Assembly (NCBI GenBank): GCA_016185205.1
Contig: JACPOA010000011.1
Span: forward strand, 1-64,000
From: Hyphomicrobiales bacterium
GTDB lineage: Bacteria; Pseudomonadota; Alphaproteobacteria; Rhizobiales; Xanthobacteraceae
Length of the DNA stretch: 64,000 nt
Direction of reading: 5' to 3'
Under the pieces are notes generated by a model. That model did no database searches. It had not been told where the DNA came from and saw only the letters and a list, made by a program, of their open reading frames with translations. The position numbers were made by a program, and so were the translations under genes. Of this stretch, positions 24,938-35,040 are shown one piece after another (position 1 is the first letter of the stretch; each line of letters opens with the position of its first letter).

Positions 24938-24952
24938 TGGCGCTCCCTAGGG
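24938..24952. repeat. attL of the tRNA-Glu island
   Basis: TGGCGCTCCCTAGGG, identical to the last 15 bases (including CCA) of the tRNA-Glu gene read on the opposite strand. The match breaks on both sides. This is the displaced tRNA 3' end. Confidence 0.8.
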
Positions 24953-25211
24953 AAGCGCATGAATTCCACAATTTCAACGGCTTGGCCGCAGGTTTGGGCA
25001 AATCCAGGGGCATTGGCCATCAACGGCTATTTTTAGCGCTGCCCAAACCAAATTGCTTATCGATGACTCGGCCGATCATTCGTCGGCCGACGCCTCGCGC
25101 CCCCGCACCCCCGCGCGCGAGGGGCGGCGGCCTCTCACCCTCCCAGGCGGGAACGCCGCGCACGTTGCTAACGCGTAGCGGAGGCCTCCAGCGAGCGCAC
25201 AGGGGCACACC

Positions 25212-25610
25212 ATGACAACCGACCGGCCTCGTAACGCGCGCGCGCGGCTGCCGGCCGGCGCAGGCGCGGAGCTGCGGTTTATGCGCTCGGCTTGGGCGAA
25301 CTCCGGGGCGAAAGCGCGCCAGGCCTTCCTGTCGGAATTGTTGGCGCCGATCTCCGATCCGCCACGCGTAGAGGCTGCCGCCGCACCTTCCTGGTTTAAT
25401 GAATTCATAGCGGACCGATTGCAGCGCTCGCCGGGCGAGCGCGTGAGAGCGCATGAGCTACTCGACTCCTACAGAGATTGGGCGTCCGCGAAGGGCGCGC
25501 CGAAGCTTGGACCGTTACGGCTCTGTCGGTTGATGACCGCGAGCGGGTTCAAGCGGAAAAAGTCTAGCGAGATTTTTTGGTGCGACGTTCGCCTGCGGGG
25601 TGACCGATGA
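25212..25610 (+). CDS. Stand-alone Pox_D5-like winged-helix protein
   Basis: 132 residues. After a basic N-terminus, the block WFNEFIADRLQRSPGERVRAHELLDSYRDWASAKGAPKLGPLRLCRLMTASGFKRKKSSEIFWCDVRL matches the C-terminal winged helix of D5/P4-type phage and plasmid primase-helicases (ELYxxYxxWxxxxG..L..GF.kkr). The helicase part is absent, so this is a truncated relative or a free DNA-binding module acting at the nearby candidate origin. First gene inside attL. Confidence 0.6.
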   Translation: MTTDRPRNARARLPAGAGAELRFMRSAWANSGAKARQAFLSELLAPISDPPRVEAAAAPSWFNEFIADRLQRSPGERVRAHELLDSYRDWASAKGAPKLGPLRLCRLMTASGFKRKKSSEIFWCDVRLRGDR

Positions 25611-26328
25611 TGCGCGCGGATTGTTTTTTCGTTCTTTTGGATACCGGAACCCTCCCACCCTCCCAATTATTGGGAGGGTGCAGCATGCGAGATACTATTG
25701 ATTTTGGCTCGCTTGTGAAACTTCGGGAGGGTTGGGAGCGTTTTGCAACAACTGTGACTCACGCGTGCGCGCGCGTGCGCGCGCGCACATGCGCGGGGAC
25801 ATTGGTTAAACCCTCCCAACCCTCCCAATATTTAAAACAAACTATCTTATCTCTTTGCCGCTCAATGGCTTTCGAGCATGGGAGGCTTTTCAGAAATCAA
25901 TTTATAGGCCTCCCTCAGCCTCCCTCAATCTCCCGAAGCCCAAGATGGCACGCTCAAGTGCGACCGGCTTCAGAGAGTCCGCGCGACCGTGAGACCTTCT
26001 GGGAAATTCCCAGAAGGTCGATGCTGCCTCAAATCACCGTGGGCAAATTGCCCGGAGTGTCCCCGCCTCTTCGCCCGACCCTGGGGCAAATTGCCCTAGG
26101 GTTGATATCTTTATTCCCATGTCGCCGCCGAACGACAGCAATTGCTGCACGTGTGTGGCATTTGGAATTCGGCCTTCGCCTTGACTCGCGCGCTGCTCGG
26201 GCTGGAAGGGGGATAGGGGGGTCTTTTCTTTGCGACCCTCTCCCTTCGGACCGTTTGGGTAGTCCAAAAAAAACCGCCGCGAAATTTGCGGAATTTGTTT
26301 TTTTTCTCCATTGCGAGTGGTGCTGGCG
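25611..26328. other. Gene-poor stretch with iterons and hairpins; candidate origin
   Basis: Repeated CCCTCCCA words: ACCCTCCCACCCTCCCAATTATTGGGAGGGT (25649..25679, containing an 11-bp inverted repeat), its inverse GGGAGGGTTGGGAG (25725..25738), and ACCCTCCCAACCCTCCCAAT (25810..25829). An alternating purine-pyrimidine GC tract lies at about 25762..25797. Palindromes follow at 25993..26019 and 26078..26102. The ORF at 25607..26332 is open through this DNA but has no protein-like composition. Replication-origin function is inference. Confidence 0.45.
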
Positions 26329-26658
26329 ATGATTGAAAAAGCCGCACTGCTGTCATCAGCGCGTCGTGCGCCGCGATTTGTTTCTCGCCGTACCGCCGCC
26401 GCGCTGCTCGATCTTTCCGGTTCAGGATTCAACAATTGGGTCAAGCGCGGACTATTGCCGCCGCCGGCTGCTGGCACGCCGAACGATGAACCGCGATGGG
26501 AGTGGGAGGAGATCGCGCGCTACATGCGCGGCGACCGATCGAGTGCGCCGCGCGATCTCTTGGGCATGCCGGCGCCCGTACAGCATGGGCACAAACGCGG
26601 GCCAGCACCAGGCCACGGCGGCCGGCCGCGCAATTCAGCGGAGCAAGATCATGGCTGA
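26329..26658 (+). CDS. MerR/AlpA-type helix-turn-helix protein
   Basis: 109 residues from the ATG at 26329. ARRAPRFVSRRTAAALLDLSGSGFNNWVKRGLLPPPAAGTPNDEPRWEWEEIARYMRG is a compact winged HTH as in AlpA or excisionase-like regulators. The tail is basic and Pro-rich (HKRGPAPGHGGRPRNSAEQDHG). Its last bases and the next start form a block, GCGGAGCAAGATCATGGCT, repeated at 27462 with a decayed copy of this gene. Likely a regulator of the island. Confidence 0.6.
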   Translation: MIEKAALLSSARRAPRFVSRRTAAALLDLSGSGFNNWVKRGLLPPPAAGTPNDEPRWEWEEIARYMRGDRSSAPRDLLGMPAPVQHGHKRGPAPGHGGRPRNSAEQDHG

Positions 26659-26995
26659 GATTCTGCGCATGGCGCTGGCGAACGCAACGAACGCGCCAAA
26701 CCTTCGGCAAATTTTCCGAAGGTTTAGTAGCCGGAAGCCTGAACGGCTGAACGTGTTGGCGCGATTATTTTCAATGGTGAGGTATGTCGTCAAACGAAAC
26801 TTTGAGACGCGCCCCGATCGAACCTCGCGGCCGGAGCGGGGACTAAATTCGAATCGTAGCCCCCTGCCGCTAAGGGGCCTGAGAGTGACTTTTAGCCCCC
26901 CACCACATGGGGGGCTAAACGAATCGCAGCGACTCAGTAGCGACTCAGTAGCTACTGAGTCGCCCCCCACCACATGGCAGGGCAATCGCATATGA
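26651..26995 (+). pseudogene. Decayed copy of the 27473..27721 gene
   Basis: Starts MAEILRMALANATNAPNLRQIF, parallel to MAKVLRLHSANDDAPLYERF of the intact gene and sharing the 19-base start junction. Soon afterwards the frame runs through hairpins (26698..26725, 26893..26917, 26941..26962) and into the MITE. Only the first dozen or so codons look original. Confidence 0.45.
26893..26962. repeat. Cluster of perfect hairpins
   Basis: TAGCCCCCC-ACCACAT-GGGGGGCTA (26893..26917) and the 22-bp palindrome CGACTCAGTAGCTACTGAGTCG (26941..26962), the latter preceded by another GACTCAGTAG. A second copy of the first hairpin is split by the MITE. Confidence 0.75.
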
Positions 26996-27120
26996 GTATA
27001 GGAGGAGTCAAAAGATTCTCCCGAGGCAGTATTCGCAAAGTAGTTTGGAGGATTTTGATTCACGACCGCTTCGATCCGGAGAACCAGATTCTCCGCCGAA
27101 TTCCATATGCGATTGCCCTG
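26978..27120. mobile_element. MITE with 17-bp terminal inverted repeats
   Basis: 143 bp. The left end CAGGGCAATCGCATATG and right end CATATGCGATTGCCCTG are perfect inverted repeats. It is flanked by an exact 10-bp direct repeat CACCACATGG (26968..26977, 27121..27130) that belongs to a second copy of the CCCCCCACCACATGGGGGG hairpin. The intact parent hairpin at 26893 shows the empty site. No room for a transposase. A 10-bp target duplication and CAGGG ends suggest mobilisation by an IS4-like transposase (inference). Confidence 0.8.
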
Positions 27121-27255
27121 CACCACATGGGGGGCTAACTTTGACGCGCATATAGAGAGCTGCGCCGCGATGTCGTGCGCCTCTAACTCTTAACTCTTAG
27201 ATAAACCCCCCAACCCCCCTGCGGGGGGCTTCTCGATCGATGAGCGATCAAAAAA

Positions 27256-27480
27256 ATGAAATACAACGGAAGCCAATTAAAAAATCTTGGACGCGCGTTC
27301 CCGGAGATAGCTCGCGACGTGCGCGGCGATCGATCGTGCGCGGCGCGCGATCTCTTGGGCATGGCGGCGCCTGCACATCGGGCGAAGAAGCGCCTTGTCG
27401 CAAAGCCGATGATGCTAAATCGGCAAATTTGCCGATTTTCCGGCCGGTCGCGCAAAACTGCGGAGCAAGATCATGGCTAA
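27256..27480 (+). pseudogene. Truncated copy of the HTH gene 26329..26658
   Basis: The second half, FPEIARDVRGDRSCAARDLLGMAAPAHRAKKR..KTAEQDHG, matches EEIARYMRGDRSSAPRDLLGMPAPVQHGHKR..NSAEQDHG of the intact gene. The HTH itself is missing and the front is unrelated. A 22-bp perfect palindrome, AAATCGGCAAATTTGCCGATTT (27417..27438), sits within it. Remnant of a tandem duplication. Confidence 0.6.
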
Positions 27481-27721
27481 AGTTCTGCGCCTGCACTCGG
27501 CAAACGACGATGCGCCGCTCTACGAGCGATTTGCGGAACGTGCGATTACTGCCGCGACTTCACGCGGGCTGCCGCCTGTGCTGGTTGCCGGCTCGCTGCT
27601 CTCGAAATCGATCAACGTCCTGATCGACGAGCTGGGCGCCGATGAAACGGCGCAGCTGCTGGACGCGCTTGCGCTGAGAATTTCCACCGCGTTGCCGCCG
27701 GGTGCCGACGATGCCGCATAA
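27473..27721 (+). CDS. Small acidic island protein
   Basis: 82 residues, MAKVLRLHSANDDAPLYERFAERAITAATSRGLPPVLVAGSLLSKSINVLIDELGADETAQLLDALALRISTALPP. Predicted all-helical, with a regular LIDELGADETAQLLDALA segment. No family recognised. It lies upstream of, and overlaps, the gene leading to the capsid protein, so a packaging or regulatory role is possible. Confidence 0.5.
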   Translation: MAKVLRLHSANDDAPLYERFAERAITAATSRGLPPVLVAGSLLSKSINVLIDELGADETAQLLDALALRISTALPPGADDAA

Positions 27722-28127
27722 TTGTTTGACTAAAGCTGGAGAATCTGATTCTGCTAACTCAGCCGAAACGGAGATTGCGGCGCCGGTTATGCCGGGCCAC
27801 TCCGCAGAGGCCACCTTGATCGGCGCCAGTCAGGCTGGGCCACGGGTTGAACGGGCGGAAGCCCGGCAGCAACGTGATGATCCGGTGGCCGTGGCGCCTA
27901 AGCCCTCAGTCAACGTCTCCGACATCACGGATTACAAGGCATTCGTGGCCTTCCTGCACAATGTAGGATTTTCACGGGCCTTTGCGAGGCGCGTCACAAA
28001 TCGAGACGCCTTCAAGTCCGCTGCCGAGCCATCCGCCGACAATCAACAGGTCGCGAACGCGATCAAATCTCAACTCGCAGCTCTCTGCGAAACACTGAAA
28101 GGCCCTGACCATGAGACTAAGAAATAG
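27702..28127 (+). CDS. Putative capsid-associated protein (protease or scaffold remnant?)
   Basis: Up to 141 residues (GTG at 27702 or ATG at 27711). The N-terminal half is low-complexity. The C-terminal segment ITDYKAFVAFLHNVGFSRAFARRVTNRDAFKS resembles the short helical motif (xxLEAxLRDAGFSRxxAKxxAxxGF) at the end of HK97 prohead proteases or at capsid N-termini. No protease catalytic His/Ser motif is present. It overlaps the capsid gene start by 17 bp. Tentative. Confidence 0.45.
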   Translation: MPTMPHNCLTKAGESDSANSAETEIAAPVMPGHSAEATLIGASQAGPRVERAEARQQRDDPVAVAPKPSVNVSDITDYKAFVAFLHNVGFSRAFARRVTNRDAFKSAAEPSADNQQVANAIKSQLAALCETLKGPDHETKK

Positions 28128-29364
28128 ATTGGCACGCAGCTCGATGATGACTTCGCCACTGGAAATCAAAGACGGGAGTGGCGGAGCGAGCGACGAAGGG
28201 ACGGCGGAAACGATCTCAGAAATCAATGAGGCGGTCAAAAGATTCATCGACCGCAACGAAGCCGAGACGAAGGCGCTCAAAGTCCAGCTCGCCGCCGAAA
28301 AGAAACGCGTCGATGCACTGGAAAAGAAATCCAATCGGCCGAACCTCGGCAGCGACGTTGCGCCGAATAACAAAATCGATCCAGCGGCGCTCGCGCTCGA
28401 ACGCAAGGCAATGGCGGCTTTCGTGCGCAGCGACGGCAATGGCGATCTTAGCGAAGTCAAAGCAATGTCGGTCAGCACCGACCCGGACGGCGGCTATCTC
28501 GTTCTGCCGCAACGATCCAGCGTCATGACCACGCGGCTCTATGAGGAATCGCCGGTGCGCCGGCTGGCGCGCAATGTGACGATGACGACCGGCGATGCAT
28601 TCGAGGAACCGTTCGACATCGACAATGTGGAGGCGATCTGGGTTGGCGAGAAGCAGGCCCGGCCGGAGACAGATTCGCCCAAGCTTGGCCTGCTAAACAT
28701 ACCGTTGCAGGAGGTCTATGCGAATCCGAAAGCAACGCAAAAACTGCTCGACACCAGCTATATCGATATAGGCGCTTGGCTGGACGGCAAGATCAACGAC
28801 AGGTTTGCGCGTTCGGATGCCGAGTCTTTTGTGAGCGGCGATGGCATCAACCGACCGCGCGGTTTCCTGAACTACGATACGACGACGGAGAACGATTTCG
28901 ACCGCGCCTGGGGCAAGCTGCAATACATCAAAACCGGAGCTGCGACGGCGTTCGCCGCCGTGTCGCCGGGCGACGTGCTGCGCGATCTGGTCTGGTCTTT
29001 GCGAGCGCCTTATCGCAAGAACGCGGTTTTCCTGATGAACAGTTTGACCGCGAGCGTGATCGACAAGTTCAAGAACGGCACGGGCGACTACATCTGGCGC
29101 GATGGCATGACCGCCGGGGCACCGCCGATCCTGTGCGGCTATCCCGTCGAAATCGACGAGAACATGCCGGCCCTTGGCGCCAACACCTATCCGATCGCGT
29201 TCGGAAATTTCGCGCTCGGCTATACGATTCCCGAAAGGCCGGGCCTCAAGATGCTACGCGATCCGTTCACCGACAAGCCGAACGTGTTTTTCTACGCCTA
29301 TCGCCGCGTCGGCGGCGGCGTGTCGAATTTCGACGCGATCAAGCTGCTGAAGTGTGAGGCGTAA
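28111..29364 (+). CDS. HK97-fold phage major capsid protein
   Basis: 417 residues; 28111 has AAAGG upstream, while 28147 (MTSPLEIKDG) is the more usual protein start. Residues about 25-75 form the coiled scaffold (delta) domain EINEAVKRFIDRNEAETKALKVQLAAEKKRVDALEKK. The HK97 body starts near ALERKAMAAFVRSDGN and contains GGYLVLPQ, ETDSPKLGLLNIPLQEVYANPKATQKLLDTSYIDIGAWL, FVSGDGINRPRGFLNY and the final GYTIPERPGLKMLRDPFTDKPNVFFYAYRRVGGGVSNFDAIKLLK. Full length and undamaged, which argues it is still used. Confidence 0.92.
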   Translation: MRLRNRLARSSMMTSPLEIKDGSGGASDEGTAETISEINEAVKRFIDRNEAETKALKVQLAAEKKRVDALEKKSNRPNLGSDVAPNNKIDPAALALERKAMAAFVRSDGNGDLSEVKAMSVSTDPDGGYLVLPQRSSVMTTRLYEESPVRRLARNVTMTTGDAFEEPFDIDNVEAIWVGEKQARPETDSPKLGLLNIPLQEVYANPKATQKLLDTSYIDIGAWLDGKINDRFARSDAESFVSGDGINRPRGFLNYDTTTENDFDRAWGKLQYIKTGAATAFAAVSPGDVLRDLVWSLRAPYRKNAVFLMNSLTASVIDKFKNGTGDYIWRDGMTAGAPPILCGYPVEIDENMPALGANTYPIAFGNFALGYTIPERPGLKMLRDPFTDKPNVFFYAYRRVGGGVSNFDAIKLLKCEA

Positions 29365-29419
29365 GGCTTCACGCTGACTGCCGTCGCGGCCACGGATGAA
29401 CTGGCCGCGATGGCGTAAC

Positions 29420-29449
29420 GCGGGGGCGGCCGGCGGAAGCCGCCCCCGC
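29420..29449 (+). terminator. Hairpin after the capsid gene
   Basis: GCGGGGGCGGC-N8-GCCGCCCCCGC, a perfect 11-bp GC stem 56 bp past the capsid stop. No T-run follows. Confidence 0.55.
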
Positions 29450-29575
29450 ACATTGCTCTGATCGAGCAAATTCGATGCTAAATTTCAGGGCGGTTAAGTC
29501 TGCCCGCGTTTGAACGGATAGTGCAGCGTTGGCCTAGCAACACGATAGGCTCAATAATCAATAGCTTCCCACAAC

Positions 29576-30680
29576 GGCGGCCGGCTCGATCGCGGCGAAC
29601 GCGGTGCAGCTCGCCGGATATCCCGAGCGCGGACCCGTGACGGCGATGATCGATCACGCTGGCGACTGGGCACGCGATGCGCCGGCAGGATCACGGCAGC
29701 AATCCTCGATCACGCTGGCGACCAAGGCGGACGCCGCAATGGCTACAGGCTCGATCGCGGCAAACGTGTGACGCGACACTTCAAGTGTCACCGCTGCGCC
29801 ACTTCAAATGTCACCTCCCGCGAGATCGGAATTAGCGCGAACGTGAAGTCACTTAGACCCCGTTTGCACTGTCTTGATGTCCCAGTTCGTGTCCCAGTTT
29901 CGCAGCAACGCATTCAAGAAGTGCCCGCATTTACTGGAGTCCGAACTGGGACACGGTCCTATTCTTGGTCCCCCAAGAGTCTCAGTTCGGCGATGCCGCA
30001 CTGAAAATGCTTGCGATTTTCGGCTCGCATATTGAGGGTGGTGACATTTGAAGTGACGCAGACCTACCGGACCAGGAACCAGCAACTCCGGGAAAACATA
30101 CGCAGATCAAGGAGATATTGCGTCTAGGTTGCCTCGCAACTCAACAGGCGGCGGTGACACTTGAAGTGTCGCGTCACACAAGCACGCGATGCGCGGGCAG
30201 GATCACGGCGGCAATCCTCGATCATGCTGGCGACCAGGGCGGACGCCGCGATGGCCGCCGGCTCGATCGCAGCGAACGCGGCGCGGCTCGCCGGACATGC
30301 CGAGCGCGGACAAGTGACGGTGACGGGACGCCGCAACAGCCGCCGGCTCGATCGCGGCGAACGCGGCGCGGCTCGCCGGACATGCCGAGCGCGGACCCGT
30401 GGCAGCGATGCTCGATCATGCTGGCGATCGGGCGCGCGACGGCGGCCGGCTCGATCGCGGCGCGCGTGACGCAACTCGCCGGCTATGCCGGGCGCGGACA
30501 CGCGGCAGCGATGCTCGATCACGCTGGCGACCGGGCGCGCGATGCGCCGGCTCGATCGCCGCGAACGTGGCACAGCTCGCAGGATATGCCGAGCGCGGAC
30601 CCGTGGCCGCGATGCTCGATCACGCTGGCGACCGGGCGCGCGATGCACCGGCTCGATCGTCGGTGGCTTTGTGCAGCTGA
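29576..30680. repeat. Degenerate tandem repeat, period about 101 bp
   Basis: The word GGCTCGATCG recurs at 29583, 29748, 30260, 30345, 30448, 30549 and 30650 (last intervals 103, 101 and 101). Each is followed by GCGGCGAACGCGG..CTCGCCGGA.ATGCCGAGCGCGGAC and GATGCTCGATCA.GCTGGCGAC. One frame per unit reads SIAANAxQLAGYxERGPVxAMLDHAGDxARD, but units shift frame relative to each other, so no long protein survives. Interrupted by the inverted-repeat element. DNA from 30681 to about 30980 shows nothing further. Confidence 0.65.
29766..30179. mobile_element. 414-bp inverted-repeat element, non-autonomous
   Basis: Ends are perfect 29-bp inverted repeats (GTGTGACGCGACACTTCAAG.. and its complement). 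Inside lie a second inverted pair, GGTGACATTTGAAGTG(A/G)CGCA (29795..29815, 30040..30060), and a third, CGTGTCCCAGTT..AACTGGGACACG. Layered terminal repeats recall IS21-type ends. No transposase gene and no clear target duplication. It splits the tandem repeat. Confidence 0.6.
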
Positions 30681-30982
30681 CCACGATCACCGAAAACACG
30701 TTTCTTTCCGCCGTGATCTGGCGCTGGCCGGACTTGATCGGGGAGACGATCACGCCCGCACCGTTTCCCGTTGGCTTTGGACCGTCGACAGAGGGCATGG
30801 CAAGGCCGTGAGCCGAGAAAGCCGGGCCGAATACCTCGACATCGCCAGCGGTGCTTATTCCGGCTCCAGCGGCAAATGCTGCCCATGGGCGGCATTTGCG
30901 GCGCGCTGATCGGCCGCGACAAAAAACGCCGCAGCGCTCCCCGCAGGGAGCTTGCACGCGGGCGGCAAATCAGAGAATCTGT

Positions 30983-31243
30983 CCGTGGGTGTAAGAACCC
31001 GGACCAGTGACAGGCGGAAGCCCCTGCAAGGGCGCCGGCCTGGTGCAAGCCGCGCATCATATTGCGGCCTGCAAAGCGACGGCTTGGCGGCCGTCCGCTA
31101 CCGACAATCCTATGTCGGGAGGCGGGCGCCATACAAGACCCTCACGGGGAAAACGTCCGACCTGTCTCACTGGCAGGTTCTTACCCTCCCGGCGCCACGG
31201 CGGACCCCGTGGCGAGGCTGTAAGAAGCCGAACCAGTGAGCCA
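30983..31243 (+). ncRNA. Possible structured RNA with two covarying hairpins
   Basis: Hairpin A GGGT-GTAAGA-ACCC then GGACCAGTGA (30987..31010); hairpin B GGCT-GTAAGA-AGCC then GAACCAGTGA (31216..31239). Loop and tail are shared while the stem base pair has changed on both sides. Between them, TCACTGGCAGGTTCTTAC (31167..31184) is complementary to A (9+7 bp) and B (7+7 bp), so alternative pairings are possible. A further stem GCCACGG..CCGTGGC lies at 31194..31213. It ends about 115 nt before the gene at 31360. Family not recognised. Confidence 0.4.
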
Positions 31244-31359
31244 ACACCATGATCGCTCAGAGAACCCACCGTGCCGCCCTGACCGGCGCCGCTCGCGCTA
31301 TTGTGTTGCCCGGCAGCGCATCCGCGCGGCCATCAAAATTGATCAGCAGGAGAAGCATC

Positions 31360-32016
31360 ATGCTCGGTAGTGTTGCGTGCGTTGCCGCCCCTTTATCCCC
31401 GTCTCTCGCTGCCCCTTCAATCGCCGGTCCTGGAGGACCTGATCGGGACGATCCTATTTTTGCTGCGATCGAGAGACACCGCGCAGCTCGTGCCGACTAT
31501 GATCGCCAAGCTGGCATCACTATCGAGATGTCCAATTCGTGCCCGGCCGATCTTGCCGGACCGCATAGCGTTCAGATCGGTAAGATTCTCGGTTCCAACG
31601 GCGAGTCCGATCGGCCGCATATGGCTTGGTCGCACGATTGCATTGATGAACACTTCGACGCCAACGCTAAGACGATGCAATCAATGTGGGGCGACAACTG
31701 GCATCCGGAAAAGCTTGAGGAAATGCGGCGGGCGAAGCATGCCGAACTCGACGAATTGTTGACGCCGCACGATGCTTGGAGTGAAAAATCCGGCCTTAAC
31801 GCCGCCGATGCGGAATTGGAGCGACTATCGGATATAGAGATCGCGCGGCTCGACGAACTCGACAAGACCGCCTCGAGCACGGTGGCCGGCCTGCACGCGT
31901 ACGTGCGCTACCGCCTGGAGCTCGAACACCGGATCGACCCTGATATCGAGCAAGAAGTGAGCTGGCTGTTGCTTCGTAATGCTGGCGATGCCCTTACGCG
32001 GCTGTTGGCCGCTTAG
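31360..32016 (+). CDS. Island protein with possible signal sequence, unknown function
   Basis: 218 residues from the ATG at 31360, which has AGGAG 8 bases upstream; the track start 31249 has none. The opening MLGSVACVAAPLSPSLAAPSIA looks like an export signal; the upstream in-frame LISRRSIM would make it twin-arginine-like. Then DPIFAAIERHRAARADYDRQAGI, a helical acidic body (NWHPEKLEEMRRAKHAELDELLTPHDAWSEK) and EQEVSWLLLRNAGDALTRLL. Similar DPIFAAIExHRAA proteins are common, uncharacterised rhizobial accessory genes. Confidence 0.65.
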   Translation: MLGSVACVAAPLSPSLAAPSIAGPGGPDRDDPIFAAIERHRAARADYDRQAGITIEMSNSCPADLAGPHSVQIGKILGSNGESDRPHMAWSHDCIDEHFDANAKTMQSMWGDNWHPEKLEEMRRAKHAELDELLTPHDAWSEKSGLNAADAELERLSDIEIARLDELDKTASSTVAGLHAYVRYRLELEHRIDPDIEQEVSWLLLRNAGDALTRLLAA

Positions 32017-32175
32017 TCTTACCGGCCGGCGGTTGGGAGTCATAGGCTGCTATTGGGAATGCCGCGATTCGCGCTCCGCTCCGAAAAAGGGCGGGGCGCG
32101 AAATTTTTAAGATGGCATTTGCGACTTGCTGGCCGGTGATATTTATAGGGGGCCTCTCAAGCCAAGGAGGCACCT

Positions 32176-32577
32176 ATGTACGGCATCATCTCCCCTTCCG
32201 CCCTGCCCGCCTCGCGCCGCCGACGCGCGCGCATGGACAATCACGCCGCGGCGCAGGCCAGCTACCGCAAAAAGCTGAAGGCAAACTGCGTTCCCGATCG
32301 CGAGGACGTCGCCATCGCGGCGCTGACGGTGGCGCTGATGATGGTGAACAACGATCCCGCTAACGAAGTCGTTGCCGGCATGCGCCGCGCGATCATCGGC
32401 GAACTGGTCTGCGTAGGCTTCAATCGCGACCAGGCGCTGCGCCGTTTCGACGGGATGGTGGAGAATATCCACGAGGATCGCGCGAAGCGACAACGCTACC
32501 GCGAATGGGAGACTGCGCGAGCTGCCGAGCGGGCGGCGTCCGACCGTGGCGACGGATCACCGGGTGGTGCGGTGTAA
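32176..32577 (+). CDS. Uncharacterised island protein
   Basis: 133 residues; strong site AAGGAGGCACCT before the ATG. A basic N-terminus (SRRRRARMDNHAAAQASYRKKLKANC), then a helical part VAIAALTVALMMVNNDPANEVVAGMRRAIIGELVCVGFNRDQALRRFDGMVENI. No signal peptide or known motif. Codon pattern and ribosome-binding site support a real gene. Confidence 0.6.
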   Translation: MYGIISPSALPASRRRRARMDNHAAAQASYRKKLKANCVPDREDVAIAALTVALMMVNNDPANEVVAGMRRAIIGELVCVGFNRDQALRRFDGMVENIHEDRAKRQRYREWETARAAERAASDRGDGSPGGAV

Positions 32578-32667
32578 CGGGGGGACGAGGCGAAATAGAT
32601 CGTCATCCGGTGATCGGTGCCTCCCCACGAGGCCGAGTTCTTCACAGCAGCCGGGATGGCTCTTGCC

Positions 32668-32695
32668 AAGTATACATTGACTCAAGTATACATAG
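32668..32695. promoter_or_regulatory. Operator-like direct repeat
   Basis: CAAGTATACATTGA-CT-CAAGTATACATAGA: two copies of CAAGTATACAT with GTATAC cores, 16 bp apart, 28 bp before the HTH gene at 32723. One and a half helical turns between centres suits dimeric repressor binding, possibly by that HTH protein. Confidence 0.45.
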
Positions 32696-32722
32696 AATCA
32701 ATTTGGGACCGCGAGTCTGCCG

Positions 32723-33229
32723 ATGATCGAAAGCAGCAATAGGATTTTCAGCTACGCCGAAATTGAGGCGATGACGCTCGGCTGGGCCGATAAGCGGATG
32801 ATTCAAAATCGGCGGGCTTTGAAATTATGGCTGACGCCGGTCGCGGAACCGCCGAAGGGCAAGGCTTACGACTATCGCTGGCCGCACGTCTTCGAAATGG
32901 TGATTTCGGCGGAGTTGGTGAAGCGCGGCTTCACACACGAGTCGGCAACTGAGGCGATCAGGAATCGATTACGGGCTGCGTCGGGTCGCCGGGGCGGATG
33001 GGCCGCCGATCTTAAATTCTCGGAACTGCCAGAAATCGACGGACGCGATTGCTATTGGGTCATGAACGTTATGCCGGATCAGCATTGGGGCTTGGTCCCG
33101 GGTGCGGTGCTGGCGTGCTGGTCACAGCAAGAGGTGGGGGCGGCGATCGCTGATTTGGACGCGGCTCTTGTGTTGAACGTCGCGCGCGTGCTTCGCGAAG
33201 CCCGCGCGCGCCTGCCGGCGGGGGAGTAA
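32723..33229 (+). CDS. MerR-like HTH protein of the island
   Basis: 168 residues. FSYAEIEAMTLGWADKRMIQNRRALKLWLTPVAEPPKGKAYDYRWPHVFEMVISAELVKRGFTHESATEAI resembles a MerR-type winged helix with dimer helix. The C-terminal part (DCYWVMNVMPDQHWGLVPGAVLACW) may be a sensing domain. It sits at the start of the int/xis gene run behind the CAAGTATACAT repeats, so it may be the island's regulator. 2 bp separate it from the next gene. Confidence 0.6.
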   Translation: MIESSNRIFSYAEIEAMTLGWADKRMIQNRRALKLWLTPVAEPPKGKAYDYRWPHVFEMVISAELVKRGFTHESATEAIRNRLRAASGRRGGWAADLKFSELPEIDGRDCYWVMNVMPDQHWGLVPGAVLACWSQQEVGAAIADLDAALVLNVARVLREARARLPAGE

Positions 33230-33231
33230 CC

Positions 33232-33606
33232 ATGGCTCCCAAAATTGCGGATTGCATCGTCATCACTGGAATTAGTCTCGCTGGGCAGAATTCCAAAAAT
33301 GCCGGCCGGCGCGTGATTGCATACTTCGATGTGAGGATCATCGACGCGATCGAGCTGCGCGGCTGCATCCTCGTGCGCACCGCTAATGACGGTGTTGCGA
33401 TCGCGCCGCCACGTTTCGACAATTCCGACCCGCGCCGGGCGATCGCTATCGTCGATAGCAGCTTTCAAAACATGATCTGCGTCGCTGCACGGGAGGCATA
33501 CAAGAGCTTGGGAGGCGTTGATTTGCCCGATTGGGCGATGGGCACGAAAATTCCGCTTCCGGCTTGCAGGCCGGCGGACGATGATCGGGACCATGGCACG
33601 CTATGA
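33232..33606 (+). CDS. Uncharacterised island protein, weakly SpoVG-like
   Basis: 124 residues. RRVIAYFDVRIIDAIELRGCILVRTANDGVAIAPPRFDNSDPRRAIAIVDSSFQNMICVAAREAYKSL has the strand order and spacing of SpoVG-type DNA-binding proteins (AxFDVxx..i.g..lv...dG..iapP.). The resemblance is visual and weak. Stop overlaps the start of the excisionase-like gene by 14 bp; same operon as int. Confidence 0.5.
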   Translation: MAPKIADCIVITGISLAGQNSKNAGRRVIAYFDVRIIDAIELRGCILVRTANDGVAIAPPRFDNSDPRRAIAIVDSSFQNMICVAAREAYKSLGGVDLPDWAMGTKIPLPACRPADDDRDHGTL

Positions 33607-33868
33607 CGCCTTACCGCCGACCCTTGCACCCCGGCTGATTAGCCGGGAAGCTGCGGCGGCGTACGTGTGCGTGTCGCCGAACACGTTTGATGAAATGATA
33701 AAGGATGGCCGGATGCCCGGCGCGAAGCGCCTCAGCGATCGGCGCATCGCATGGGATGTCCGCGAACTCGACGCGGCTGTTGACCGACTGCCCGCCTCCG
33801 CCGGCGGCGGCGGTACTGACGAAAGCTGGAGCGACGTTGATGCCTCGCAAGCGTCCGCCATTCGTTGA
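33593..33868 (+). CDS. Excisionase-like (AlpA/Xis) HTH protein
   Basis: 91 residues from the ATG at 33593. PRLISREAAAAYVCVSPNTFDEMIKDGRMPGAKRLSDRRIAWDVRELDAAVDRLP is a textbook MerR-like excisionase winged helix. Overlaps both neighbours, directly upstream of the integrase, which fits a recombination directionality factor for the 15-bp att sites. Confidence 0.8.
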   Translation: MARYDALPPTLAPRLISREAAAAYVCVSPNTFDEMIKDGRMPGAKRLSDRRIAWDVRELDAAVDRLPASAGGGGTDESWSDVDASQASAIR

Positions 33869-34952
33869 GCTTTGGCGCGATCGACACGGCAAGGTCCGCG
33901 TCTATTTCCGCAAGGACCGTGGGCCGCGCATTCGTTTGCCCGACGCCATCGGCTCCGATGAATTCAATTCCGCTTATCAGGCCGCGCTGCTTGGCCAGCC
34001 GGCGCCCATCCAGGATCGGTTCACGCGCACGGCGCCGGGCTCGATGGCGGCCCTCGTCGTTTCATACCTCAAAAGCCCCGCTTATATGGTTCTCAGGGAC
34101 ACGACGAAAACCGGTTACAGCAGCCGGATCGAGACGTTACGCGAACAGCACGGCCTCCGCAGTGTTATGGGCCTCACGCGCGAGCGTATCGAGAGCGGAA
34201 TTCTCGGGCCTTACGCCGGTCGTCCAGGCTCGCAGCTCGCGATTCTCAAGATGCTGCGCGTGCTGATTAGGCATGCGATGAGCCTCGAGCGCGGCAATCC
34301 TTTGAAATTGTCGGCAGATCCATCCGAAGGCATCGCGCGGCCGAAGGGTCACGAGATCCGCGCCTGGACCGATGCCGAGACGGCGGCATTCGAAAGGCGC
34401 TGGCCGATCGGCACGAAGCAGCGGACCGCCTATTCGCTCATGCTATTCGTGGGCACCGCACGCGTCGACGTGCACCGGATGACGTGGACGCAATTCGATG
34501 CCGGCGGCGTCGGCTATGTCCGCAGCAAGACCGGGGTCGGCGTCGACATGGCCGTGCATGCAGAACTGCAGCGCGCCCTGGCCGTTGCCGATCGCAGCCA
34601 TGTCACGATCCTGAACACCGACTATGGCCGCCCCTTCACGGTCAGCGGTTTCAGCAACTTCATGCGCGATGCGATCTCGGAAGCTGGACTACCGCTCGCC
34701 TGCAAGCCGCATGGCCTCCGCAAGACGCTCGGCCGGCGCCTGGCCGACGCCGGCTGCACCGCGCACGAGATCATGGCCATGCTCGGCCATACCACGCTGG
34801 AGGAAGCCGAGCGCTACACGCGCGAAGCCGATCGGCGTCGCGGCGGCCGCCAGGCCATTATCAAGCTTGAGGCACACAAAGCGAACGCGGATGCCCAAAC
34901 CGCCTTTCTGGGTTTGGGAAAAGGCGGAAAAAGAAAAAGGAAATCAACGTGA
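33840..34952 (+). CDS. int: Tyrosine recombinase (island integrase)
   Basis: 370 residues from the ATG at 33840, overlapping the xis stop; the track start 33705 lies inside xis. An N-terminal SAM-like/core-binding part (about 80-170), then the catalytic domain with VGTARVDVHRMTWTQ (first Arg), KPHGLRKTLG (His-x-x-Arg), MLGHTTLEEAERYT (His and the nucleophilic Tyr). The end is very basic (GKGGKRKRKST). The gene ends 12 bp before attR in tRNA-Glu. Confidence 0.92.
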   Translation: MPRKRPPFVELWRDRHGKVRVYFRKDRGPRIRLPDAIGSDEFNSAYQAALLGQPAPIQDRFTRTAPGSMAALVVSYLKSPAYMVLRDTTKTGYSSRIETLREQHGLRSVMGLTRERIESGILGPYAGRPGSQLAILKMLRVLIRHAMSLERGNPLKLSADPSEGIARPKGHEIRAWTDAETAAFERRWPIGTKQRTAYSLMLFVGTARVDVHRMTWTQFDAGGVGYVRSKTGVGVDMAVHAELQRALAVADRSHVTILNTDYGRPFTVSGFSNFMRDAISEAGLPLACKPHGLRKTLGRRLADAGCTAHEIMAMLGHTTLEEAERYTREADRRRGGRQAIIKLEAHKANADAQTAFLGLGKGGKRKRKST

Positions 34953-34964
34953 AAGCCGATGCGC

Positions 34965-34979
34965 TGGCGCTCCCTAGGG
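34965..34979. repeat. attR, 3' end of tRNA-Glu
   Basis: TGGCGCTCCCTAGGG, identical to attL at 24938. It covers CCA, discriminator base, acceptor 3' strand and the start of the T stem. Confidence 0.8.
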
Positions 34980-35040
34980 GACTCGAACCCCTGTTTTCGC
35001 CGTGAGAGGGCGACGTCCTGGGCCGCTAGACGAAGGGAGC
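34965..35040 (-). tRNA. tRNA-Glu (anticodon CTC)
   Basis: Minus strand GCTCCCTTCGTCTAGCGGCC..: 7-bp acceptor GCTCCCT/AGGGAGC, D arm CGTCTAGCGGCCCAGGACG, anticodon arm TCGCC-CTCTCAC-GGCGA with CTC at 34-36, T arm CAGGGGTTCGAGTCCCCTA, and an encoded CCA. 76 nt. It is the island's integration site and remains intact. Confidence 0.93.

Follow-up and report, generated by a model that had tools for sequence, protein, structure and literature searches.

The question raised by this locus is why an HK97-type major capsid gene should lie intact in a genomic island with much decayed DNA, and what its protein could do there. The original prediction proposed that it may redirect a helper phage into island-specific capsids, interfere with helper assembly, or form a shell owned by the cell. 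We examined the window, by which we mean the whole stretch of 64,000 nucleotides that was analysed, and compared its island with related elements found in searches of up to about 400 genomes each of the order and the family, plus GTDB and IMG/VR.

The island and its capsid cassette

An integrase beside a tRNA-Glu gene and a 15-bp att repeat delimit an element of 10,042 bp at 24938-34979. The number of exact 15-bp att copies expected by chance in 64 kb is about 6e-5, and the integrase ends 13 bp away from the tRNA gene. This is a small integrative element with an integrase, exact att repeats and a specific site, as a phage satellite would be. A clean empty tRNA-Glu site was not found in congeners, where the right flank is conserved beside tRNA-Glu and the left flank of the window is unmatched. 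The element contains the following features.

24938-24952, attL, exact 15-bp copy of the tRNA-Glu 3' end (TGGCGCTCCCTAGGG), direct repeat with 34965-34979
25212-25610, + strand, C-terminal remnant of a phage/satellite DNA primase (PHROG 1156, 5e-5; tblastn to L052, 8e-4)
26311-26658, + strand, small HTH/excisionase-like DNA-binding protein (PHROG 597, 3e-5; PHROG 66, 1e-4)
27473-27721, + strand, 82-aa gene, first of the capsid cassette (position and weak similarity to the small gene of relatives)
27702-28127, + strand, 141-aa gene, HK97 prohead protease C-terminal domain without the catalytic domain (profile, E=2e-4)
28111-29364, + strand, major capsid protein with delta domain, alternative start 28144 (Pfam PF05065, 4e-75; AlphaFold2/Foldseek)
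29574-30663, + strand, decayed ~102-bp repeat array, a pseudogene that once encoded a protein of ~34-aa repeats (repeat search)
31249-32016, + strand, cargo gene with a Tat-like signal, start may be 31528 (ORF list, codon use)
32176-32577, + strand, cargo gene (ORF list, codon use)
32723-33229, + strand, 168-aa island gene common to L053 (tblastn, 30% over 169 aa, 1.3e-11)
33518-33868, + strand, AlpA-like regulator (PHROG 25900, 4e-12; 57% identity to the AlpA-like protein of L065)
33840-34952, + strand, tyrosine integrase (Pfam PF00589, 1e-12; tblastn to L065, 2e-39, and to L037, 6e-22)
34965-35040, - strand, tRNA-Glu(CTC), the target gene (ARAGORN); its 3' end, 34965-34979, is attR

The island was rightly described as holding much decayed DNA. 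The primase remnant at 25212-25610 aligns just to the last ~85 positions of PHROG 1156, and the repeat array at 29574-30663 is broken. Because the primase is reduced to its C-terminus the window copy may not replicate alone, and with most of that gene lost it may no longer move. The integrase and AlpA-like regulator of a PICI are both in place (33840-34952 and 33518-33868), the replication module is represented by the primase C-terminus alone, and no TerS-like gene was recognised in the window element. Membership among PICI-like elements is plausible for this island, in which the replication gene is broken and neither a packaging gene nor a packaging site was recognised.

Some of the remaining DNA has features of its own. 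The repeat array encodes a peptide like GSIAANVAQLAGYAERGPVAAMLDHAGDRARDA, with frameshifts. A 32-nt inverted repeat (97%) lies at 29766-30179 with ~350 bp between its arms and other inverted repeats adjoining, and is possibly a small mobile element. ORFs judged by eye to resemble the cargo gene at 31249-32016 occur in the related elements L037 and L038.

The ORF at 28111-29364 (417 aa) matches the whole Pfam Phage_capsid model PF05065 at E=4e-75 and the PHROG major head protein at 1.7e-60. An AlphaFold2 model from an alignment of 35 relatives (pLDDT 80) predicts a long N-terminal delta-type helix at residues 31-74, followed by the HK97 fold. When this model was searched with Foldseek, the RcGTA capsid came first, the capsid of the cf-PICI EcCI2 second (1e-25), and then other phages including HK97; a profile search of the PDB sequences agreed, with the RcGTA and EcCI2 capsids nearest. 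The gene is an intact HK97-fold major capsid gene including the delta (scaffold) domain, and the expectation of a full-length, undamaged protein was confirmed by Pfam, PHROG and AlphaFold2 alike. No homologue above 63% was found in the genomes searched. The protein deviates at 4 of 73 conserved columns, which is within the range of other capsids, and its branch in the capsid tree (0.38) is no longer than that of its sister from L052 (0.46); judged by branch length and conserved columns it does not appear to be decaying fast. The delta domain has 126 residues before the GG column, or 115 from the alternative start. Median lengths are 99.5 in islands, 121.5 in phages and 128 in GTAs (p=0.006, with kinship ignored), so that island delta domains are overall shorter than those of phages and GTAs; the one in the window is not shortened.

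A capsid gene that is intact amid decayed parts of an element could also point to an encapsulin-like or other shell owned by the cell, given that HK97-fold proteins can be domesticated. We find this scarcely credible, and the idea gained no support from the analysis. The protein matches Phage_capsid, delta helix included, and no encapsulin family, it has no cargo enzyme partner, and the gene always travels within mobile elements delimited by att sites.

The capsid gene closes a unit of three genes at 27473-29364 (82 aa, 141 aa and the capsid) that overlap or nearly do so. The 82-aa gene matches in place a gene of 58-90 aa upstream of the capsid in L035, L037, L038, L053 and L067, with weak similarity (tblastn to L038, 9e-4; profile E=0.027, the best non-training match). 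A profile built from 12 complete proteases, with their C-terminal domains alone, matches the last ~60 aa of the 141-aa protein; at E=2e-4 this match ranks second of 2568 stop-to-stop ORFs, after the S49-type capsid protease of L067. The gene occupies the slot of the full protease in L034, L052, L053 and L065, where the order is small gene, prohead protease and capsid (L053 and L065) or protease and capsid (L034 and L052). The protease catalytic domain was not found in the window element by tblastn or by six-frame profile search. The second small gene, 27702-28127, is thus a protease of which the non-catalytic tail is left. The scaffold of lambda (Nu3) and that of P2 (gpO) are made from the C-terminal part of the protease gene, which suggests that the 141-aa protein may have a scaffold or capsid-binding role; a leftover of a deletion is the plainer alternative. 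The conservation of the cassette supports the suggestion that the two small genes are partners of the capsid. A protease tail in every protease-less island was also considered but is not put forward as a rule, as the profile supports it in the window alone (E=2e-4), with a weak match in L038 (0.23) and none detected in L035, L037 and L062. An imperfect duplication (~80%) between 26508-26684 and 27303-27506 involves the end of the regulator gene and the start of the 82-aa gene.

Related elements in other genomes

The window element is no isolated remnant but belongs to a recurring type. A related capsid gene was found in twelve further elements, in which six-frame profiles that detected all controls gave no TerL or portal match. 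In a set of 10 elements that includes the window, none of 2054 six-frame ORFs matched the TerL or portal profiles, and all control loci were detected. The twelve occupy eight or more different attachment sites. Seven are delimited by direct repeats, with sizes of 9.05-10.85 kb, and five are not delimited:

L052, tRNA-Pro, 9,914 bp, direct repeats
L053, tRNA-Gly, 10,256 bp, direct repeats
L035, tRNA-Ser, 10,237 bp, direct repeats
L038, tRNA-Arg, 10,004 bp, direct repeats
L062, tRNA-Lys, 9,051 bp, direct repeats, in a Methylovulum MAG (gammaproteobacterium)
L112, in comEC, ~10.82 kb, direct repeats, host G684
L111, in comEC, ~10.85 kb, direct repeats, host G742
Not delimited: L034 (tRNA-Thr), L037 (tmRNA), L110 (tRNA-Ser), and the metagenomic contigs L065 and L067

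The hosts span several alphaproteobacterial families and the one gammaproteobacterial MAG. L035 and L038 are both in genome G120, L035 being from Nitrobacter sp. Nb-311A, and L052 and L112 are in single-contig genomes. The usual contents are an integrase, an AlpA or MerR-like regulator, primase/D5 or AAA replication genes and variable cargo. Primase genes are present in L035, L062 and L111, and a prohead protease with its catalytic domain in L034, L052, L053 and L065. Taken together this is a type of satellite-like integrative element of ~10 kb. Its members encode an integrase and an AlpA-like regulator, as a rule also a primase, along with cargo that varies and a small capsid cassette; TerL, portal and connectors are absent. 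Eight of 399 family genomes have a capsid match at E<=1e-96. In seven of these eight, our own genome included, the capsid gene lies in an island that has no portal, which is a lower bound because the weaker matches were covered in part. The remaining one (G121, locus L036) has it near a contig start with tail genes beside it. Direct terminal repeats, a sign of packaged circular genomes, were absent from the IMG/VR contigs.

Individual members have further genes. Tape measure proteins (TMP_2) adjoin the capsid gene at L053:7008-9158 (716 aa) and L110:10846-13788 (980 aa), in islands without portal or TerL, and given these genes a satellite might also set tail length. PADLOC identified cargo of defence type, a ShosA-like DprA at L052:12843-13559 and a PDC-S60-like metallophosphatase at L037:4786-8091. 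L067 (IMG/VR, 10,375 bp) has a TerS-like gene, a 79-aa gene, the capsid and an S49 protease downstream, with TerL and portal not found. L111 and L112 come from genomes of one genus, where they are inserted in the competence gene comEC between direct repeats of 19-21 bp.

A maximum-likelihood tree of 38 capsids places the GTA capsids in one group and the island capsids in another, with 100/99 on the separating branch. Several phage capsids (L036, L064, L066 and L068) fall within or next to the island group, so repeated capture of the capsid from phages is possible from the shape of the tree. The window capsid is sister to that of L052 (92/96), which comes from another family, and both are inside a group of seven (100/97), five of them from islands. 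Selection was read from L035 and L037, whose sole common DNA is the cassette (80 aa, 102 aa and capsid; 1808 bp, 82%). Between them the capsid gene has a dN/dS of 0.08-0.10, and the two small genes have values of 0.14-0.24 (80 aa) and 0.10-0.16 (102 aa). In this pair, to which the figures apply and not to the window copy, purifying selection acts on the cassette. Because the two share the cassette alone, at low dN/dS, selection maintains it and it passes between elements that differ in integrase and site. The values for the window against L052 or L053 (0.21-0.30) have saturated dS and are not relied on. Neutral dN/dS had been named in advance as a result that would count against a special role for the gene; in the homologous L035/L037 cassette the ratio is far below 1.

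These observations bear on the possibility that the island is a decayed prophage, its capsid gene being all that is left intact of a former phage. The truncated primase, the protease without its catalytic domain and the broken repeat gene in the same island are what such decay could leave. Even so, we consider this explanation unlikely, though it deserves to be weighed. Elements of 9-11 kb with the same reduced gene set occupy many sites, some of them in the single-contig genomes G256 and G684, several relatives have intact primases and full-length integrases, and the L035/L037 cassette is under purifying selection. Random decay would not repeatedly spare the capsid and never the portal or terminase. 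The head, packaging, tail and lysis genes that a prophage should have at least in part are not what the window island contains.

Missing phage genes and a possible helper

No terminase, portal or tail gene was found in the window island, which has only the capsid gene and the protease tail. The original prediction that terminase, portal, protease and tail genes are absent holds for TerL and portal in the six-frame searches and for the tail genes; for the protease it holds for the catalytic part, the C-terminal domain being present. Nor were the missing genes found displaced nearby. A search of the whole 4.38-Mb assembly found Phage_portal elsewhere only at a separate GTA locus on contig C83, which also has protease- and tail-like genes. 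In this GTA-like cluster (L004, 6318-15656 of C83) protease and capsid are separated by several unrelated genes, and there is an incomplete second capsid copy with one stop; the GTA may be damaged.

The sole HK97-type portal found in the assembly is thus that of the GTA, and the closest solved capsid is that of RcGTA, so one could imagine that the island capsid is combined with portal, terminase and tail taken from the host gene transfer agent. This seems to us very unlikely. Island and GTA capsids are separated by the 100/99 branch, and Phage_portal has no match anywhere in G684 or G742, the genomes that carry the islands L112 and L111. The RcGTA head holds ~4 kb, for which a 10-kb element is too big. 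The island is not itself a GTA, its capsid lying outside the GTA clade (100/99) and the GTA being on C83.

The gene content of the elements (no TerL, portal or tail) implies that transfer would depend on a helper. We think it probable, if far from certain, that the capsid gene is part of a PICI-like phage satellite and that its protein, like Ccm of SaPIbov5, becomes part of particles whose assembly the helper directs. When a helper tailed phage infects the cell, or upon induction, the capsid protein of the island would assemble, alone or mixed with the helper capsid protein, with the portal, terminase and tail of the helper, and with the helper protease where the island one is missing. Assembly would be biased to a shell suited to ~10 kb and the yield of the helper would be lowered, as by Ccm for SaPIbov5. 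The 141-aa protease tail would here bind the capsid as a scaffold or else be a remnant. With its primase truncated, the window copy may only interfere, or be mobilised with functions provided in trans.

Among the three ideas first put forward, redirection of a helper into island-specific capsids is by analogy the best supported, with a published precedent in Ccm of SaPIbov5 (PMC5052747, PMC8569155), and the helper-dependent particles are what we infer. Interference with helper assembly would follow from the redirecting act itself. A more far-reaching proposal, to which we give little credence, is that the elements are an undescribed satellite type with a 'geometry kit', taking the motor, portal and tail body from the helper. 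The kit would consist of the capsid, the free-standing protease C-terminal domain as a dedicated scaffold (compare lambda Nu3) and in some members a tape measure, so that the satellite could set head size as well as tail length.

The capsid protein could instead be purely an anti-phage decoy, which co-assembles with and poisons the procapsids of incoming phage and protects the cell, the island itself not being packaged. The loss of the primase in the window copy, the defence-type cargo of relatives (the ShosA-like DprA of L052 and PDC-S60-like phosphatase of L037) and the fall of 10^3-10^4 in helper titre when Ccm is expressed alone (PMC5052747) all fit such a role. We regard it as improbable, since the relatives retain an integrase, replication genes and a narrow element size that a pure decoy would not need. 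The two roles are also not clearly separate, as in known cases one protein does both interference and redirection.

Comparison with known systems

The nearest parallel for entry into helper-directed particles is Ccm of SaPIbov5. This capsid homologue, encoded by the satellite, cannot make capsids on its own; it takes the pentamer positions in capsids made by the helper, giving T=4 shells (PMC5052747, PMC8569155). In both cases an HK97-fold capsid homologue with a delta domain is carried by a small integrative element without portal or TerL, and the rest of the particle comes from the helper, which for the window element is read from its genes. No protease has been identified in SaPIbov5, and the window element likewise lacks a catalytic one. 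The differences are that the capsid here is of another lineage, with RcGTA and cf-PICI EcCI2 as the nearest PDB sequences, that the window delta domain is not shortened, that several relatives have their own prohead protease and two a tape measure protein, and that the hosts are mostly Alphaproteobacteria. The likeness to Ccm would therefore be one in the way of working; descent from the Ccm family is not claimed.

Among Gram-negative PICIs, PmCI172 and EcCICFT073 are described as having a lone capsid homologue (PMC6893505). By that description they share with the elements here the single capsid homologue and the need of a helper for the particle, whereas a cassette with small gene and protease, or its protease-tail form, is not mentioned in the passages that describe them. 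The cf-PICIs, such as EcCI2, also have their own capsid protein, but they encode portal, connectors, both terminase subunits and HNH (PMC10690885), with an average size given as 14 kb (PMC10803314); the elements here have no portal or TerL and measure 9-11 kb. Identity with a cf-PICI was considered for the window element and is excluded by the missing portal and TerL under the definition in PMC10690885; a head maturation protease with its catalytic domain was likewise not found in the window element. The P4-like satellites (Sid, Psu) are similar in their ~10 kb, primase, integrase and logic of capsid-size piracy, but P4 uses an external scaffold and not a capsid homologue. The gene transfer agents of Rhodobacterales type have a related HK97 capsid (44% between the window capsid and the GTA capsid of its own genome), but they are full head-tail clusters with a separate capsid clade.

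Compared with the known cases in the literature searched, these elements add recurrence, a uniform size of ~10 kb, a protease-tail gene and, in two members, a tape measure. Satellites are usually sorted into those that build a whole head (cf-PICI) and those that build none (P4 and most PICI). The elements described here are in between, with a shell protein and often a protease but no portal and no terminase large subunit. If confirmed, they would extend the Ccm strategy to a new host group and a different capsid lineage, and offer a compact unit of three genes for testing how much of the capsid programme is required by a satellite. They would also be a warning against calling a lone capsid gene a prophage remnant by default.
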